Virus record (IMG/VR): IMGVR_UViG_3300020548_000018
Coordinates: 1-49,472 of that record
Length of the DNA: 49,472 nucleotides
DNA from: a virus
Direction: 5' to 3' (one strand)
Part shown: positions 479-12,374 of the stretch, piece by piece
Layout of the letters: every line of letters starts with the position of its first letter
How positions within the stretch are numbered: the first letter of the stretch is position 1
Made by a program: the position numbers and the translations under genes
Notes under the pieces: generated by a model
Databases searched by the model: none
What the model saw: the letters and a program-made list of their open reading frames with translations, nothing else
Told to the model about the DNA's origin: nothing

Positions 479-499
479 AGTGATATGATGGAGGGAGAA

Positions 500-700
500 A
501 TGCGGACCTATACGAATAAGATCCTAGATCTGGTGGATGACGGACTCTATGGTCGTCTTGATCAAGCTGCACGAGACCTTATTGCATCGCTCCTTATGTA
601 TATGTCTGAGGACGATGTAAAGCAGTTCTGGATTGATTATGGTATGGACGATCCCTTTGGAGAAGACGAATTTTTTGGAGAGGAAGATGAAACTTTATAA
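500..700 (+). CDS. Acidic hypothetical protein (66 aa)
   Basis: An ATG pair at 485/488 is also in frame, but the ATG at 500 follows GGAGGGAGAA, an excellent ribosome-binding site, so I start there. The product is acidic, ending EFFGEEDETL, and the middle is likely helical. No family is recognised. Its last 14 bases overlap the next gene in another frame. It is the first gene after the promoter at 450. Confidence 0.6.
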   Translation: MRTYTNKILDLVDDGLYGRLDQAARDLIASLLMYMSEDDVKQFWIDYGMDDPFGEDEFFGEEDETL

Positions 701-1001
701 AATTTCTCAGGAAGAAAACCGTGATTATGATACCTATGATTCTGCCGTAGTCATTGCAGAGTCAGAGGATGAGGCTCGTCTTATTCATCCTTATTGGTAT
801 GGAGAATGTCCATATTTCTGGCGTGAGTCGGATGAGAAGTGGTGCTATAAGGCAGATGGTCGGGTTGTCGATACGTATGTGAAAGCAAATTATGGTACGT
901 TATCGTGGACTTCTCCAGAATTTGTTCAGGTAGAATATCTGGGCGAAGCAAAGGAAGGTTCTGTAACTTCTATCGTTTGTTCTTCTTTCAATGCAGGGTA
1001 A
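687..1001 (+). CDS. Conserved-looking small phage protein (104 aa)
   Basis: The open frame extends back to 633, but the ATG at 687 follows AGAGGAAG and gives the N-terminus MKLYKISQEENRDYDTYDSA. That pattern, followed by VVIAESEDEAR, I associate with small uncharacterised proteins of many phages in which a short beta-strand precedes an acidic helix. Aromatic residues are frequent (PYWYGECPYFWRES). Role unknown; presumably a small cytoplasmic early protein. Confidence 0.6.
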   Translation: MKLYKISQEENRDYDTYDSAVVIAESEDEARLIHPYWYGECPYFWRESDEKWCYKADGRVVDTYVKANYGTLSWTSPEFVQVEYLGEAKEGSVTSIVCSSFNAG

Positions 1002-1774: not shown

Positions 1775-2004
1775 TGACAAAGGACCAACTATTATGTAAG
1801 GGCATTCGTGCAGATCGTATTGAGATTGAAGCACAGATATCGGATCTTGAGTCTGATCTTAATAGCCTGCAGCAACTTTGTCCCCATATAAATGCTACTA
1901 AGACCTATAAGTCTTCCAGCGGGAATTATGATCCCTCTATGGATCGTCAATGGTTTGAATATGAATGTCCTGATTGTGGAAAGCGATGGACGGAGGATAA
2001 GTGA
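1774..2004 (+). CDS. Small zinc-ribbon-like protein (76 aa)
   Basis: Residues 1-35 look like a helical coil. Two cysteine pairs or near-pairs follow: CPH at about residue 36 and CPDCGKRW near the C-terminus. Together they could bind one zinc ion, as in small treble-clef or zinc-ribbon proteins. It could bind nucleic acid or a host protein, but no specific family is recognised. Its start overlaps the upstream stop (TAATG). Confidence 0.6.
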   Translation: MTKDQLLCKGIRADRIEIEAQISDLESDLNSLQQLCPHINATKTYKSSSGNYDPSMDRQWFEYECPDCGKRWTEDK

Positions 2005-2279
2005 TGCACAATCTTACAATCATAAAGTCTCCTACCATTAAGGCTGACTTCTCAGCCGATCAGTGGGAACTGTTTACAATGTCTTTCCCTCGGGATGAAA
2101 TTGAGTCCATAGCAAATAGACTGAACAATGAACTAGAAGACTATGTCAATAATGGCTATACCATACAAGAGACTCTTAGTGGTATGCATGATATTATGAA
2201 GAAGTTTAGTAAATATGGTGCCTATGACTCAGAACCTATTCGCTTTCTTGAACGTGTACTAGAGGAGATCTATAAGTGA
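2004..2279 (+). CDS. Hypothetical protein (91 aa)
   Basis: GTG at 2001 and ATG at 2004 are both possible. The ATG lies 7 bases after GGAGG (1992-1996) and overlaps the preceding TGA, so I prefer it. The product is acidic and mostly helical, with no membrane segment and no recognised motif. It belongs to the tightly coupled run that continues to 3310. Confidence 0.55.
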   Translation: MHNLTIIKSPTIKADFSADQWELFTMSFPRDEIESIANRLNNELEDYVNNGYTIQETLSGMHDIMKKFSKYGAYDSEPIRFLERVLEEIYK

Positions 2280-2578
2280 TGAAACTATCTTTAGAATTAA
2301 ATTATGAAGCCTATGATGATGCCTTCCTTCAGATGCTCTATGAAGGATATGAAGCCTGTTACTATTCGTTTGTTGAAGATAGTAATAAAATGGCTCGAGA
2401 TCCAGCACGTTATGAATATCTTGCAGAAGATGTTCTACACAATGCTGCTGTCTGTGGTGCATATGAAACTCTGGCCGAACACTATACTGCTGGGGACGGT
2501 CATAAGCGTAAGCTACAGGCCATCCGTGATCGTATTGAATATGGGCAGAAACTCGTCAAGGGTATGAGTAATGGATAG
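2279..2578 (+). CDS. Acidic helical hypothetical protein (99 aa)
   Basis: The start at 2279 follows GAGGAGATCTATAAGTG. The product is rich in tyrosine and acidic residues in the first half (YEGYEACYYSF) and helical after that. Its 3' end overlaps the next gene by 8 bases. Not recognised. Confidence 0.55.
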   Translation: MKLSLELNYEAYDDAFLQMLYEGYEACYYSFVEDSNKMARDPARYEYLAEDVLHNAAVCGAYETLAEHYTAGDGHKRKLQAIRDRIEYGQKLVKGMSNG

Positions 2579-6183: not shown

Positions 6184-6612
6184 TTACAGAGGACGGTAGC
6201 CCCAAGTCCAGCTACCGTCCTCGTTCCATTTTTTATATCTTCTAGAAGCTAATTCAGACATACGTTTTCTATGTTCTGAAGACTTCATATGATTTTTATC
6301 TCCTATGAGTTTAGGGAGATATTTTCCGCAATCTTTATAAAACCCCTGCTGTTTTTTAGTATTAGCTGCCTTTATAGAGTTTTCTCTTACACGTTGATCT
6401 TCTTTTGTCAAACCTTTGTTCCAAGGTTTGGTAGGATTATTTTGTTTTGCTTGAGAAATTCTTTTGCCTATTTCAGCGACGTAAGGATCTTCTTTTGTCA
6501 AACCTTTGTTCCAAGGAATAATTTCTTGGTCTGGACAATAGGTTTTTATATCATAATTAAATTCGATAGGTTCGAGACCTAATGCTTTACCGATTGGATC
6601 ATAAATATCCAT
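6184..6612 (-). CDS. NUMOD3-containing homing-endonuclease-like protein (142 aa)
   Basis: Start chosen at 6612 (GAAGGAGCATCAGC before ATG). Two copies of a PWNKGLTKED motif (residues about 33-42 and 61-70) are NUMOD3-type DNA-binding repeats found in GIY-YIG and HNH homing endonucleases. They are followed by a basic helical tail (HRKRMSELASRRYKKW). I see neither a GIY-YIG nor an HNH core, so this may be a DNA-binding remnant or a protein whose nuclease domain I cannot recognise. It lies opposite to its neighbours, one base from the stop of the DUF932 gene. Its last codons are made of that gene's terminator. Its leader matches that of the endonuclease gene at 11901. Confidence 0.7.
   Translation of the reverse strand: MDIYDPIGKALGLEPIEFNYDIKTYCPDQEIIPWNKGLTKEDPYVAEIGKRISQAKQNNPTKPWNKGLTKEDQRVRENSIKAANTKKQQGFYKDCGKYLPKLIGDKNHMKSSEHRKRMSELASRRYKKWNEDGSWTWGYRPL
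6189..6234 (+). terminator. Rho-independent terminator of the DUF932 gene
   Basis: A perfect 12-bp inverted repeat (GAGGACGGTAGC at 6189-6200, GCTACCGTCCTC at 6211-6222) with a 10-base loop is followed, 6 bases later, by a run of six T (6229-6234). It sits 7 bases past the DUF932 stop. The whole hairpin is also the coding sequence for the C-terminus of the leftward gene. Confidence 0.8.
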
Positions 6613-6633
6613 GCTGATGCTCCTTCTTAGCGT

Positions 6634-6678
6634 TAGAGTCCGTAGAGCTCCCAACTCGTGACGGACAATAATATTTAG
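6634..6678 (-). promoter_or_regulatory. Late-promoter-like box plus hairpin leader of a homing gene (copy A)
   Basis: Read leftward, CTAAATA (plus-strand TATTTAG at 6672-6678) resembles the T4 late box. About 6 bases on, near the predicted start, begins a hairpin with arms GTCCGT and ACGGAC (plus positions 6638-6643 and 6661-6666) enclosing a smaller GAG/CTC stem. The 34 bases 6634-6667 match 12396-12428 except for one substitution and one insertion. Both copies precede homing-type genes whose coding sequences are unrelated. Confidence 0.65.
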
Positions 6679-8991: not shown

Positions 8992-8999
8992 GAATAAAT
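8992..8999 (+). promoter_or_regulatory. Late-promoter-like box before the tmRNA acceptor piece
   Basis: AATAAATA differs by one base from the T4 late consensus TATAAATA and equals the boxes used divergently at 18769-18789. The expected start, about 6 bases downstream (near 9005), is where the acceptor RNA appears to begin. A weak sigma70 reading (TTGAAA, 17 bases, TAAATA) overlaps. The 49 bases between the lipoprotein stop and this box hold no gene I can support. Confidence 0.45.
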
Positions 9000-9004
9000 A
9001 AAGT

Positions 9005-9073
9005 TTGCCGAGGTCGTTGAGACTTAGCATATAGGTTGGTAAGACAGGGGTGCGAATCCCCTCACCTCCACCA
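9005..9073 (+). ncRNA. ssrA: Permuted tmRNA, acceptor piece
   Basis: The 3' end CACCTCC (9063-9069) plus ACCA (9070-9073) pairs over 7 bp with GGGGGTG at 9594-9600. The third pair is G-U, the alanine identity element of tmRNA, and CCA is encoded. Just before it is a T arm: stem AGGGG/CCCCT (9046-9050, 9058-9062) with the 7-base loop TGCGAAT. No normal D or anticodon arm is present. In two-piece tmRNAs of alphaproteobacteria the acceptor piece precedes the coding piece in the gene, as here. The 5' end is a guess. Confidence 0.85.
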
Positions 9074-9086
9074 TAAACTGATAAAA

Positions 9087-9120
9087 TCCTGTCTATTATA
9101 AATAAGTATGATTGACAGGA
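9087..9120 (+). promoter_or_regulatory. Hairpin with late promoter in its loop, controlling the HNH gene
   Basis: TCCTGTC (9087-9093) pairs perfectly with GACAGGA (9114-9120), and the second arm contains part of the ribosome-binding site AGGAGG (9117-9122). The 20-base loop holds a perfect T4 late box TATAAATA (9097-9104). A late transcript would start near 9110, lack the first arm and leave the site free. Read-through from upstream would hide it. T4 I-TevI-type genes are known to use this arrangement. Confidence 0.8.
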
Positions 9121-9127
9121 GGATTAA

Positions 9128-9592
9128 ATGAAACACATACATCATATTGTTCCCAAACATTTAGGCGGAACAGATGAACCAAATAACTTGATAGAACTTA
9201 CTATTGAAGAACATGCCGAAGCCCATAGAGTTTTATATGAAACACATGGTCACTGGCAAGATTTATTGGCTTGGAAAGGTTTGTTAGGTCTTCTTACTTC
9301 TGACGAATGCACTTTTATAGCAATTCGTGAAGGAGCAAAAAAAGGCGCTGCAATAACCAATGCTATTAGATGGGGAAATGGTAAGAAATCTGCCACTGGT
9401 AAATGGATAAGATCAGGCGTTCCTTCTCCTTATGAAAAAGGAACAGATGGCAGAAAAATTAGAAACAAGAGATATTGGTTCAATGATGGCGTTTCCGAAG
9501 GACAGTTCTCTTTAGAGGATTATCCTAAAGATTGGGTTCGTGGTAGATTAAAATCTGTTATGAAAAAAACGAATCCATATGTCAGTTTATGA
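9128..9592 (+). CDS. HNH homing endonuclease inside the tmRNA gene (154 aa)
   Basis: An N-terminal HNH core is visible: H5-H6 in HHIVPKHLGG, N20 in PNNLIEL and H29/H33 in EEHAEAH, a compact arrangement typical of phage homing nucleases. The C-terminus (RYWFNDGVSEGQF, then DWVRGR) shares a pattern with the end of the GIY-YIG protein at 46450 (WINNGRANTR, then GYVRGR) and is probably a DNA-recognition element. The gene begins 54 bases after the tmRNA acceptor piece and its stop is two bases before the coding piece. It would cut a tmRNA gene lacking the insert. Expression is expected late. Confidence 0.85.
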   Translation: MKHIHHIVPKHLGGTDEPNNLIELTIEEHAEAHRVLYETHGHWQDLLAWKGLLGLLTSDECTFIAIREGAKKGAAITNAIRWGNGKKSATGKWIRSGVPSPYEKGTDGRKIRNKRYWFNDGVSEGQFSLEDYPKDWVRGRLKSVMKKTNPYVSL

Positions 9593-9593
9593 T

Positions 9594-9746
9594 GGGGGTG
9601 TATAGGCTCGATTATCTACATTAAGGCTTCGAGGAGACCAAAGGCGAAACGTAGATGCAAACGATAATGATGCATCATTTGAAGGTTACGCTCTAGCAGC
9701 TTAATCCTCATTGGGTTGGCGACTGACCTAGAAACAGAACAGTCGC
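9594..9746 (+). ncRNA. ssrA: Permuted tmRNA, tag-coding piece
   Basis: It starts with GGGGGTG (9594-9600), the partner of the acceptor piece, followed by a D-loop-like TATAGGCTCGATTA. The resume region GTAGAT precedes GCA at 9657, and the tag reads ANDNDASFEGYALAA, stop at 9702-9704. The ANDN start is typical of alphaproteobacterial tags and YALAA resembles the E. coli end, a protease degron. A 7-bp hairpin (GCGACTG 9719-9725, CAGTCGC 9740-9746) then closes the piece. Residues outside the tag follow the two-piece tmRNA layout only loosely, and I could not define the pseudoknots. Confidence 0.85.
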
Positions 9747-9770
9747 ATTTTCATTTTGAAAGGATATATT

Positions 9771-10434: not shown

Positions 10435-10571
10435 ATAATTATGAATTGCTTTGGGAATGCTTTATGTCTGAACAGATGACTACTGCTCAGTTAGAGCAGC
10501 ATCTCAAGGAAGATCCAGAGTTTGCTGTATTTGTAAGAGAAAAGCTCGATCAAATTGAGGATTCAGAATGA
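10431..10571 (+). CDS. Small acidic helical protein (46 aa)
   Basis: It is coupled by ATGA overlaps to both neighbours, which supports translation despite its size. MNNYELLWECFMSEQMTTAQ leads into a second acidic helix ending QIEDSE. Function unknown. Confidence 0.5.
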   Translation: MNNYELLWECFMSEQMTTAQLEQHLKEDPEFAVFVREKLDQIEDSE

Positions 10572-10969
10572 ACAAACTACTGATCTCTGCATTAGTTCTA
10601 TTCTCTACCTCTGCTCTAGCAAACTATGATATAGTAGTTTCGAAACGCAGCCAGTCAATGACAATTTACGAGGATGGAGAGTTAATTGAACGTTGGCCAG
10701 TATCTACAGCCCGGAAGGGATATTATACGCCAACTGGAACTTTCCGCCCTTATTCTTATCAGCCTATACATTATTCAAAGAAATATGACAATGCTCCCAT
10801 GCCGCACTCTATATTCTTTTCTGGTGGTTATGCTATTCATGCTACCCCTCACGTGGGCAATTTGGGTCGACCTGCTAGTCACGGATGCGTTCGGTTGAGT
10901 CCAAATAACGCTTACACTCTTTACAATATGACCAAAGGTGAATCTACGACAATCACAATCAAGGATTAG
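10568..10969 (+). CDS. Secreted L,D-transpeptidase (YkuD family, 133 aa)
   Basis: The signal peptide spans residues 1-18 (MNKLLISALVLFSTSALA). The mature protein is essentially one YkuD domain with the hallmark HATPHVGNLG (91-100) and SHGCVRL (104-110), Cys107 being the nucleophile. Such enzymes form 3-3 peptidoglycan crosslinks or swap D-amino acids or amines at the third residue of stem peptides in the periplasm. Many alphaproteobacteria make much of their crosslinking this way. A phage copy could stabilise or weaken the wall or modify crosslinks before lysis. Neighbours are small membrane proteins. Confidence 0.85.
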   Translation: MNKLLISALVLFSTSALANYDIVVSKRSQSMTIYEDGELIERWPVSTARKGYYTPTGTFRPYSYQPIHYSKKYDNAPMPHSIFFSGGYAIHATPHVGNLGRPASHGCVRLSPNNAYTLYNMTKGESTTITIKD

Positions 10970-10973
10970 TTCT

Positions 10974-11159
10974 ATGGACACAATCAAAGAGACTTATGCA
11001 TACTCTCATGCTAGCACTGTAATGTGGTCATTACAACAGGAGTTGAACAGACATAAGGCTCGAAGATTGAACGATAGTCATATACAACAATATCTTGAAC
11101 GACGAATAGCCGAATTGAAGGAATATGAAAAACAATGCTTAAAAATTCAGGCTTCATAG
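10974..11159 (+). CDS. Small helical protein (61 aa)
   Basis: The open frame extends to 10938 inside the transpeptidase gene, but the ATG at 10974 lies 4 bases after that stop and gives MDTIKETYAYSHASTVMWSL. The rest is a charged coiled helix (RRIAELKEYEKQCLKI). It overlaps the next gene by 25 bases. Unknown. Confidence 0.5.
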   Translation: MDTIKETYAYSHASTVMWSLQQELNRHKARRLNDSHIQQYLERRIAELKEYEKQCLKIQAS

Positions 11160-11353
11160 AAGAAGTAGAAAAACTCTGTCAAGATAAAAATATTGAATAT
11201 ATTGACGCCGTAGTTTTTTGGTGCGAGAAAAATAATCTAGAAATAGAGACTGCGGCGTATTGGATACGAAAAGACCCAGTAATGAAGTCTAAGATTCAAT
11301 TGGAGGCTGAAAACCTTAATGTTCTGAAACGTGGGGCTAGATTGCCGATATAA
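11135..11353 (+). CDS. 33: gp33-like late transcription co-activator (72 aa)
   Basis: The sequence FIEEVEKLC, then IEYIDAVVFWCEKNN and KSKIQLEAENLN parallels the central part of T4 gp33 (FIIEKM..., YLEATTAFLEENS, EKIQSEA, from memory). Its place directly ahead of 59 and 32 is the T4 order. T4 gp33 links RNA polymerase to the sliding clamp at late promoters. This copy is 72 residues against 112 in T4 and lacks the LDFLL clamp-binding tail, ending RGARLPI instead. It overlaps the upstream gene. Confidence 0.7.
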   Translation: MLKNSGFIEEVEKLCQDKNIEYIDAVVFWCEKNNLEIETAAYWIRKDPVMKSKIQLEAENLNVLKRGARLPI

Positions 11354-11383: not shown

Positions 11384-11935
11384 ATGCGCATAAAAACAAT
11401 CGGTAAACCCTCACATATATCCCTGCCAATAGTCAAGAAGGCGGCGAATTTTTATGGAAAATATCTCATTGGAGGGGGTAAACTTTACAACAACTTAAAG
11501 TTGACTATCCAATTTGAGAAAATGGATCATATCGACGGAGACTACGCTTATTGCGACTGGACTGACGACAGTCAGCAGAAAAGAGAATTTACTATAGGCG
11601 TAGATAGAGCTCTTAACAAGAAAGAAACATTACTAGCTTTAGCTCATGAAATGGTCCACCTAAAGCAATATGCTAAAGGTGAAATGAAAGACATTTGGAA
11701 GCCAGTACGCATGGTCAAATGGCAGGGTGAAAAATACCTCCACGAAGAGATGGATTATTGGGAATGTCCTTGGGAAATCGAGGCTTATGGCCGAGAGAAA
11801 GGACTTTATTTTAAATTCATAAATTATATGAGAGAGGGAGAACCTGAAATAAAATGTCAGCCTTCGAAGCGTATAAAGATTATGGCTCCACAGAAACAAC
11901 CTAAGATTGCTTCTTCAAACGCCACCATTCTTTAA
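11384..11935 (+). CDS. HExxH metalloprotease-like protein (183 aa)
   Basis: A GTG at 11357 is in frame, but the ATG at 11384 has GGAGG in front and follows the late promoter. Residues 83-96 ([15 protein letters not shown]) contain HEMVH (88-92), a zinc-binding motif of metalloproteases. A downstream [12 protein letters not shown] could supply the third ligand, as in SprT- or IrrE-like small proteases. Its substrate is unknown. The last 27 codons run through a copy of the gene 59 start (11854) and overlap the end of the leftward endonuclease by 35 bases, so its C-terminus was probably altered by that insertion. Confidence 0.7.
11854..11904 (+). pseudogene. 59: Duplicate fragment of the gene 59 start
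   Basis: Bases 11854-11884 match 12450-12480 with four differences: both begin ATGTCAGCCTT and encode MSAFEAYK(D/E)Y. Here the frame reads [16 protein letters not shown] and stops at 11902. It lies in a different frame within the protease-like gene. It appears to be the original start of gene 59, cut off when the endonuclease gene arrived, or a copy made during that event. Confidence 0.7.
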
Positions 11936-12374
11936 TTTTTTCGGATTGTTGTCGTTTGAATTCTTCGCTTCTGGTTTTGCCTTTTGTTTTTTGTATTCTT
12001 TTTTCGATTGTTTCTTTTGATTGTTTTTTGCCAGATGCTTTCGATCGTAACTTTTGAATAGTTTCTTCTGAGTAGACTCCAGTTTTTCCTTTGTTCCAGA
12101 CGGTTGCTCCATCTGGTCCTTCGCCACCATCCGAGCGATTATGGAGAATACCATTGTTTAAATCTTTTCTTCCATACCAACGTATTAAACGTCGTTCAAT
12201 AGCGCAAGCACCAACGTTGGTTAGATTAGTTTCAAGAAATATTATTTTTGATTTGTCTTTGGGAACTGATACGCTATGAGATTTATTAAAGGCTCTTCGA
12301 CCTTTGCCCTTGCCGATATAATATGGGGAGTTGTCTGATGCTCGGATATATGCGTATACGTAATAAATATTCAT
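11901..12374 (-). CDS. GIY-YIG homing endonuclease (157 aa)
   Basis: The N-terminal GIY-YIG nuclease domain is clear: YVYAYIR (5-11), YYIGKGKG (18-25), Arg26, and Glu60 in [14 protein letters not shown] as the metal-binding residue. It is similar in style to T4 Seg proteins. Residues 90-157 carry NUMOD3-like motifs ([13 protein letters not shown] and KTRSEEFKR) for DNA contact. It lies against the direction of its neighbours, between a truncated and a full copy of the gene 59 start. Its leader is shared with the gene at 6184. It should cut near the start of gene 59 in relatives lacking the insert. Confidence 0.9.

Follow-up and report, generated by a model that had tools for sequence, protein, structure and literature searches.

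How does a phage tmRNA gene accommodate a homing-endonuclease gene (HEG) between its two pieces, and is the arrangement peculiar to one genome or the habit of a mobile lineage? The question is raised by IMG/VR virus record IMGVR_UViG_3300020548_000018, whose entire 49,472 nucleotides we refer to as the window. These 49 kb are a genome fragment from a T4-like phage and include genes for a gp32-like ssDNA-binding protein (52-57% identity to cyanomyovirus counterparts), baseplate proteins, gp33, and gp59. The gp33-like late-transcription coactivator gene (11135-11353; Pfam PF16805, E 6e-16) indicates a context of T4-type late transcription. A predicted L,D-transpeptidase (YkuD) gene (10568-10969) is located downstream of the tmRNA and a tRNA-Arg(TCT). 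Two minus-strand ORFs between other phage genes resemble GIY-YIG/NUMOD3 homing endonucleases, one at 11901-12374 with a PHROG 314 match and a second at 6184-6654 assigned by eye only. All features of the tmRNA and HNH genes described below, and the gp33 gene, are on the plus strand.

A first-pass annotation, made from the letters alone, had proposed a permuted tmRNA gene split by an HNH gene, and every part that it named is present where it was placed. The acceptor (tRNA-like 3') piece spans 9012-9073, its 5' end being putative, and comprises a T-arm (9046-9062; 5/5 pairs), the acceptor 3' strand CACCTCC (9063-9069), and ACCA (9070-9073), which is seen directly in the sequence. The HNH ORF follows at 9128-9592. 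The coding piece (9594-9748; 3' end approximate), identified from its sequence and the Rfam match, opens with the acceptor 5' strand GGGGGTG (9594-9600) and contains a tag reading frame, ANDNDASFEGYALAA plus stop (9657-9704), with an LAA-type hydrophobic end. The 7-bp acceptor pairing claimed across the HNH gene was confirmed at 7/7 pairs, including the G.U at pair 3 (G3.U70). The intervening sequence (IVS), put earlier at about 520 bases, measures exactly 520 nt (9074-9593) according to the Rfam match and the acceptor search, and its removal is expected; only base 9593 lies between the HNH stop and the coding piece. Rfam RF04321 (tmRNA_permuted) matches end to end over 9012-9704 with 52.8 bits versus a cut-off of 47 (E 1.4e-7), its alignment treating the HNH gene as an insertion. 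The alpha_tmRNA model, suggested at the outset as the check, gave no match above its cut-off in the window but matched in six of the other loci (L011, L155, L170, L172, L175, and L186), and RF04321 matches both window pieces. Unlike Rfam, ARAGORN did not detect the permuted tmRNA gene in the window. The same tmRNA/HNH arrangement was assembled in four further IMG/VR contigs of the same phage (L005-L008) and is therefore no assembly chimera. Judged by its sequence, the window locus is a true two-piece, circularly permuted tmRNA gene carried by a T4-like phage; by homology, its spacer would be removed and the tmRNA would be active.

The HNH gene encodes 154 amino acids and matches PHROG 655 (E 6.8e-14). 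Its Pfam HNH match (E 3.7e-4) scores 21.0 bits, just below the cut-off of 21.4 bits, because the window ORF starts at the HH motif. Residues H5, H6, N20, H29, and H33 are invariant among 19 HNHs, and a profile search of solved structures returned HNH-bearing chains; Foldseek with an AlphaFold model of the HNH (pLDDT 77.9, core 95) gave no significant match. HNHs of the clade defined below have dN/dS values of 0.05-0.24 and are under purifying selection. Two C-terminal tail types occur in this clade, YWFNDG..EGQFSL..RGRLKSVMKKTNP and WYHNP..GQGKKSKNPGLNFH, which are absent from other relatives. A group I or II intron in the insert was considered and rejected: no Rfam intron match was found in the window, and the IVS outside the HNH gene amounts to only ~55 nt.

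IMG/VR was scanned with the window HNH protein and with a four-HNH alignment, for a combined total of 107 loci. At these, tmRNAs were found by a simple search for a T-arm, acceptor, and CCA with a complementary 5' acceptor strand downstream, together with Rfam matches. Twenty distinct HNHs are located within the IVS of permuted tmRNA genes, all with tags ending in LAA or IAA. Their IVSs are 464-642 nt long, and those of 118 HEG-less permuted tmRNAs from viral contigs are 29-352 nt. The arrangement is present in about 20 IMG/VR phage lineages, with at least 18 besides the phage of the window. As an independent test, scans with the HNH C-terminal tails alone yielded 38 loci, all 38 at permuted tmRNAs: 35 inside the IVS (L320, L346, and L350 being placed there from the downstream coding piece only, where the contig ends or the upstream piece was missed by the simple search), two immediately upstream of the tmRNA (L324, which is L010, and L353), and one remnant (L336). 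No HNH with such a tail was found away from a tmRNA among these 38 loci. All examples are metagenomic, with zero HEG-bearing permuted tmRNAs in 50,697 isolate phage records; one scan of bacterial genome contigs gave a single HNH relative, aligned over residues 1-81 only, which is not a member of the clade.

Some loci are arranged differently. At L010 (3991-4734) and L353 (1213-1840), HNHs with tmRNA-type C-tails lie directly 5' of a tmRNA having an ordinary short IVS; given this position just upstream of the tmRNA and not inside it, some of the homing may follow the free-standing mode. Related HNHs at L181 and L184 are divergent from the tmRNA 5' end, and the HEG-bearing tmRNA of L012 is followed directly by a second HNH homing-endonuclease-like ORF in the opposite orientation (1840-2280, minus strand). 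Phages of the phiCbK type, from Caulobacter, have an ordinary permuted tmRNA, which in L003 (phiCbK) adjoins a GOLLD RNA match containing tRNA-Gly (479-965, minus strand).

In a tree of 63 HNH relatives, the 20 IVS members and the tmRNA-adjacent L154 form one clade (support 99/95), and the 42 related HNHs outside that clade are located elsewhere. A tree of 150 phage permuted tmRNAs, which is a quick tree of short molecules with many weak branches, scatters HEG-bearing genes among empty ones and implies 14 changes, at least 8 of them forced by supported branches. Related phages were compared for a tmRNA without the insert, as the first-pass annotation had recommended, and empty relatives were found in the same neighborhood. 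Most of 80 loci found via the upstream flanking gene hold a permuted tmRNA near that gene on the same strand, and among these loci the HNH is carried only by the phage of the window, the other IVSs being 23-242 nt long. In L011 and L274, the nearest empty/full pair, the flanks are ~90-93% identical and the tmRNA nearly so, but the IVS differs, and with it each of the two acceptor strands (CTGGTCC/GGGCCAG vs CGCCTCC/GGGGGCG). Comparison of the window with L238 and L241 places the peak of divergence around the IVS, with the coding piece further out almost identical. Joint replacement of the IVS and the acceptor strands fits the pattern expected from a short co-conversion tract, and co-conversion of both strands would explain how the stem is still paired after transfer. 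In L336, the tmRNA core and the IVS ends are those of the window, and tmRNA and helix are intact, but the 113-nt IVS holds just a 32-codon C-terminal piece of the HNH; we interpret this piece as a decayed HNH remnant. Tree discordance, empty sites, and co-conversion, by which mobility of a homing endonuclease is judged, are all found in these comparisons. The initial proposal of a two-piece permuted tmRNA with a HEG in its IVS is supported, and its relatives greatly strengthen it through recurrence, mobility among tmRNAs, empty sites, and the remnant. The joint replacement of insert and acceptor strands, and the IVS-end helix and hairpin-borne late box described below, go beyond that proposal. 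We consider it highly probable that the IVS was colonized by a mobile HNH lineage specialized on phage permuted tmRNAs, by way of the homing, processing, and two-transcript mechanism proposed below.

The lineage need not be purely selfish. The HNH could be a domesticated phage weapon for cutting host tmRNA genes or those of competing phages (marker exclusion), its own copy being protected by its placement. The tie of the clade to tmRNA would suit such a role, as would the co-conversion and marker exclusion by HEGs that are known in T4 (PMC2988022) and the finding of a lone, partially aligned HNH relative in the bacterial contig scan; the patchy distribution, the repeated gains and losses, and the remnant fit a homing life cycle instead. 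We regard service as a weapon as unlikely; the weapon and homing readings are compatible and not mutually exclusive.

The stem that joins the two pieces bears on whether the tmRNA is still a tmRNA. All seven acceptor positions are paired across the insert in 20/20 sequences (12 sequence types), with G3.U70 at pair 3 in all 20, 7/7 pairing and in part G3.U70 having served as selection criteria for some of them. When strands are swapped between lineages, a mean of 5.3/7 positions is paired. In 18/20 sequences, the IVS ends extend the acceptor stem through CCA by ~12 bp with one constant C.A mismatch, the exceptions being L164 and L168, in which most of this IVS-end helix is absent. The IVS-end helix played no part in selecting the 20 sequences. 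Its 5' strand in the window (9072-9083) pairs with 9580-9591, and its 3' strand (9580-9593) encodes the last HNH codons and the stop (CAGTTTATGAT). Over the acceptor and IVS-end helix in the alignment of 20 sequences, 94.5% of cells are paired vs 70.9% in shuffled controls, 87 cells show double changes vs 28.6, and the covariation score is 0.600 vs 0.159, with all slid registers at or below 0.15. The failure of ARAGORN to detect the gene and the modest Rfam score in the window could be taken to mean that the insert killed the tmRNA, leaving a pseudogene with pieces that can no longer assemble into a tmRNA, but in 20 lineages the acceptor stem is perfect, covaries, and keeps G3.U70, and the tags ending in LAA or IAA are intact, which renders this very improbable.

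The IVS-end helix was found in 84 distinct HEG-less IVSs too, the 3' leader of which was partly fixed by the search pattern; the helix is therefore ancestral, and its loop is where the HNH gene sits. The window HNH and 11 relatives use as their stop the TGA of the leader, TTTATGATGGG or a near variant of it; their last codons (..SL-stop) therefore double as the 3' strand of the helix. In L012, L164, L168, L177, L179, L180, and L186, the HNH ORF extends into the mature coding piece. Chance placement of an ordinary free-standing phage endonuclease in the spacer, with no specific link to tmRNA, has in its favor that free-standing HEGs are common between T4 genes and that segB lies within a tRNA cluster (PMC2988022), as well as the 42 related HNHs located elsewhere, but this reading is already largely refuted by the precise repetition of the placement inside the closing helix among IVS members, by the single clade of the 20 with L154, and by the C-tail loci, all of which are at tmRNAs, and we give it next to no credence.

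An RNA hairpin (9079-9126; z -4.0) overlaps the HNH Shine-Dalgarno sequence GGAGG (9118-9122) and contains TATAAATA (9097-9104), a candidate T4-type late promoter box proposed from its sequence and from the gp33 gene in the same genome. In 18/20 loci, the HNH ribosome-binding site is covered or abutted by a hairpin (z -1.3 to -8.5); the two HNH genes without a leader hairpin start 10-11 nt after CCA. Within the hairpin, TATAAATA, ACTAAATA, or CCTAAATA is present in 18/18 loci having a leader. Window-wide, TATAAATA is not enriched (5 observed vs 6.3 expected), so the late-box claim is based on its position in the 18/18 leaders. A late-promoter-like box, AATAAATA (8993-9000), precedes the acceptor piece and is proposed from its position, being weak on its own; a late-type box is present 49-54 nt upstream of the T-arm in 10/20 HEG-bearing tmRNAs, and in eight of these it is TATAAATA. 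The window thus combines the features of a T4-type hairpin-regulated HEG, namely a hairpin that hides the ribosome-binding site, a predicted late promoter inside it, and a phage with T4 late transcription. For I-TevI, II, and III, segB, and mobE of T4, early read-through RNA conceals the site and a late transcript from the hairpin exposes it (PMC2988022). Based on the box embedded in the hairpin, gp33, and the tmRNA's own box, it is probable that the tmRNA precursor and the HNH mRNA are transcribed separately.

Building on the anatomy, covariation, recurrence, phylogeny, empty sites, and remnant as read from sequence, we infer how cleavage, homing, RNA processing, promoter use, and tmRNA activity would fit together. 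During the late phase of a mixed infection, the HNH protein would cut a resident empty tmRNA gene, and repair of the break from a HEG-bearing copy would replace the IVS together with both acceptor-stem strands, leaving the stem paired. Within the complete precursor, the acceptor stem and the ~12-bp IVS-end helix would join the pieces over the ~500-nt insert; processing would then free two mature pieces, and the HNH RNA would be discarded. The HNH would remain untranslated from the precursor because the hairpin masks its ribosome-binding site, and would be translated from a second, late transcript that begins within the hairpin and does not include the acceptor piece. Leader-RCCA pairing slows RNase P, which must unwind it (PMC9433436), and removal of rRNA IVSs proceeds by an RNase III cut of a long helix (PMC4990558). 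An RNase III cut of the long IVS-end helix would be a reasonable first processing step.

The T4 HEGs (I-TevI/II/III, segB, and mobE) are similar in being phage HEGs with a ribosome-binding-site hairpin and late promoter, a patchy distribution, and flank co-conversion, and segB is located among tRNA genes (PMC2988022). They reside in self-splicing introns or simply between genes, whereas here the home is a permuted-tmRNA spacer and the 3' end of the HEG forms part of a precursor helix. In tmRNA T-loops, group I introns that carry LAGLIDADG HEGs, reported for 36 of 883 intron-form genes, likewise place a HEG within a tmRNA gene, in RNA missing from the mature molecule (PMC11915505). By contrast with their self-splicing and ligation, the window has an HNH family member and no intron, and the pieces stay separate. 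For HEGs, the 2025 tmRNA database paper names no location but the group I introns of intron-form genes, and as contents of permuted IVSs it mentions tRNA-Ala and a repetitive element (PMC11915505). Marine phages such as Melnitz resemble the window in having a two-piece permuted tmRNA upstream of gp33, with the same IVS-end sequences ACCATAAAC / TTTATGATGGGGG; the Melnitz IVS differs in being 142 nt long and free of an HNH gene (PMC9004378). In rRNA IVSs, including the insertions of CPR bacteria, an ORF or HEG is similarly found in a spacer cut from a structured RNA with no ligation (PMC11270868, PMC4990558), and GIY-YIG genes are known in non-intron rRNA insertions of CPR bacteria (PMC11270868); these cases concern rRNA, not tmRNA, and are bacterial, not phage. 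We found no homing endonuclease described in a permuted tmRNA in the open-access literature. That the HNH homing endonuclease represents a known kind of gene in an undescribed home, the permuted tmRNA IVS, is well supported by sequence.

Recurrent small ORFs other than HNH, of 62-114 amino acids, are present in IVSs of other phage permuted tmRNAs (L036, L046, L054, L061, L065, L071, L072, L075, L103, L113, L122, L129, and L257). These types occur in IVSs of 199-352 nt and in L257. The small ORF MTKITKENTPNKYVRWF.. of L054, L065, L103, and L129 has a dN/dS of ~0.1 or below, and two small-ORF types end in ..VSL-stop in the same leader as the HNH; tblastn of two IVS small ORFs against isolate phages found nothing. 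We lean toward the broader view that the phage permuted-tmRNA spacer is a general cargo site for the HNH homing lineage and several families of small ORFs, inside an RNA gene of an essential type, with processing replacing splicing and with the homing unit bringing along an acceptor stem that would keep the host RNA functional after each transfer.

The locus represents an intron-like niche without an intron, in which a homing gene occupies a spacer that is expected to be processed out and the end of the HNH gene itself is written into the precursor helix. As ARAGORN can miss such genes, counts of phage tmRNAs may be too low. Empty, full, and decayed loci constitute natural experiments for homing and for the maturation of a two-piece tmRNA with a 500-nt spacer. 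The maturation of pieces transcribed ~500 nt apart and the selection acting on phage tmRNA during infection are now testable.
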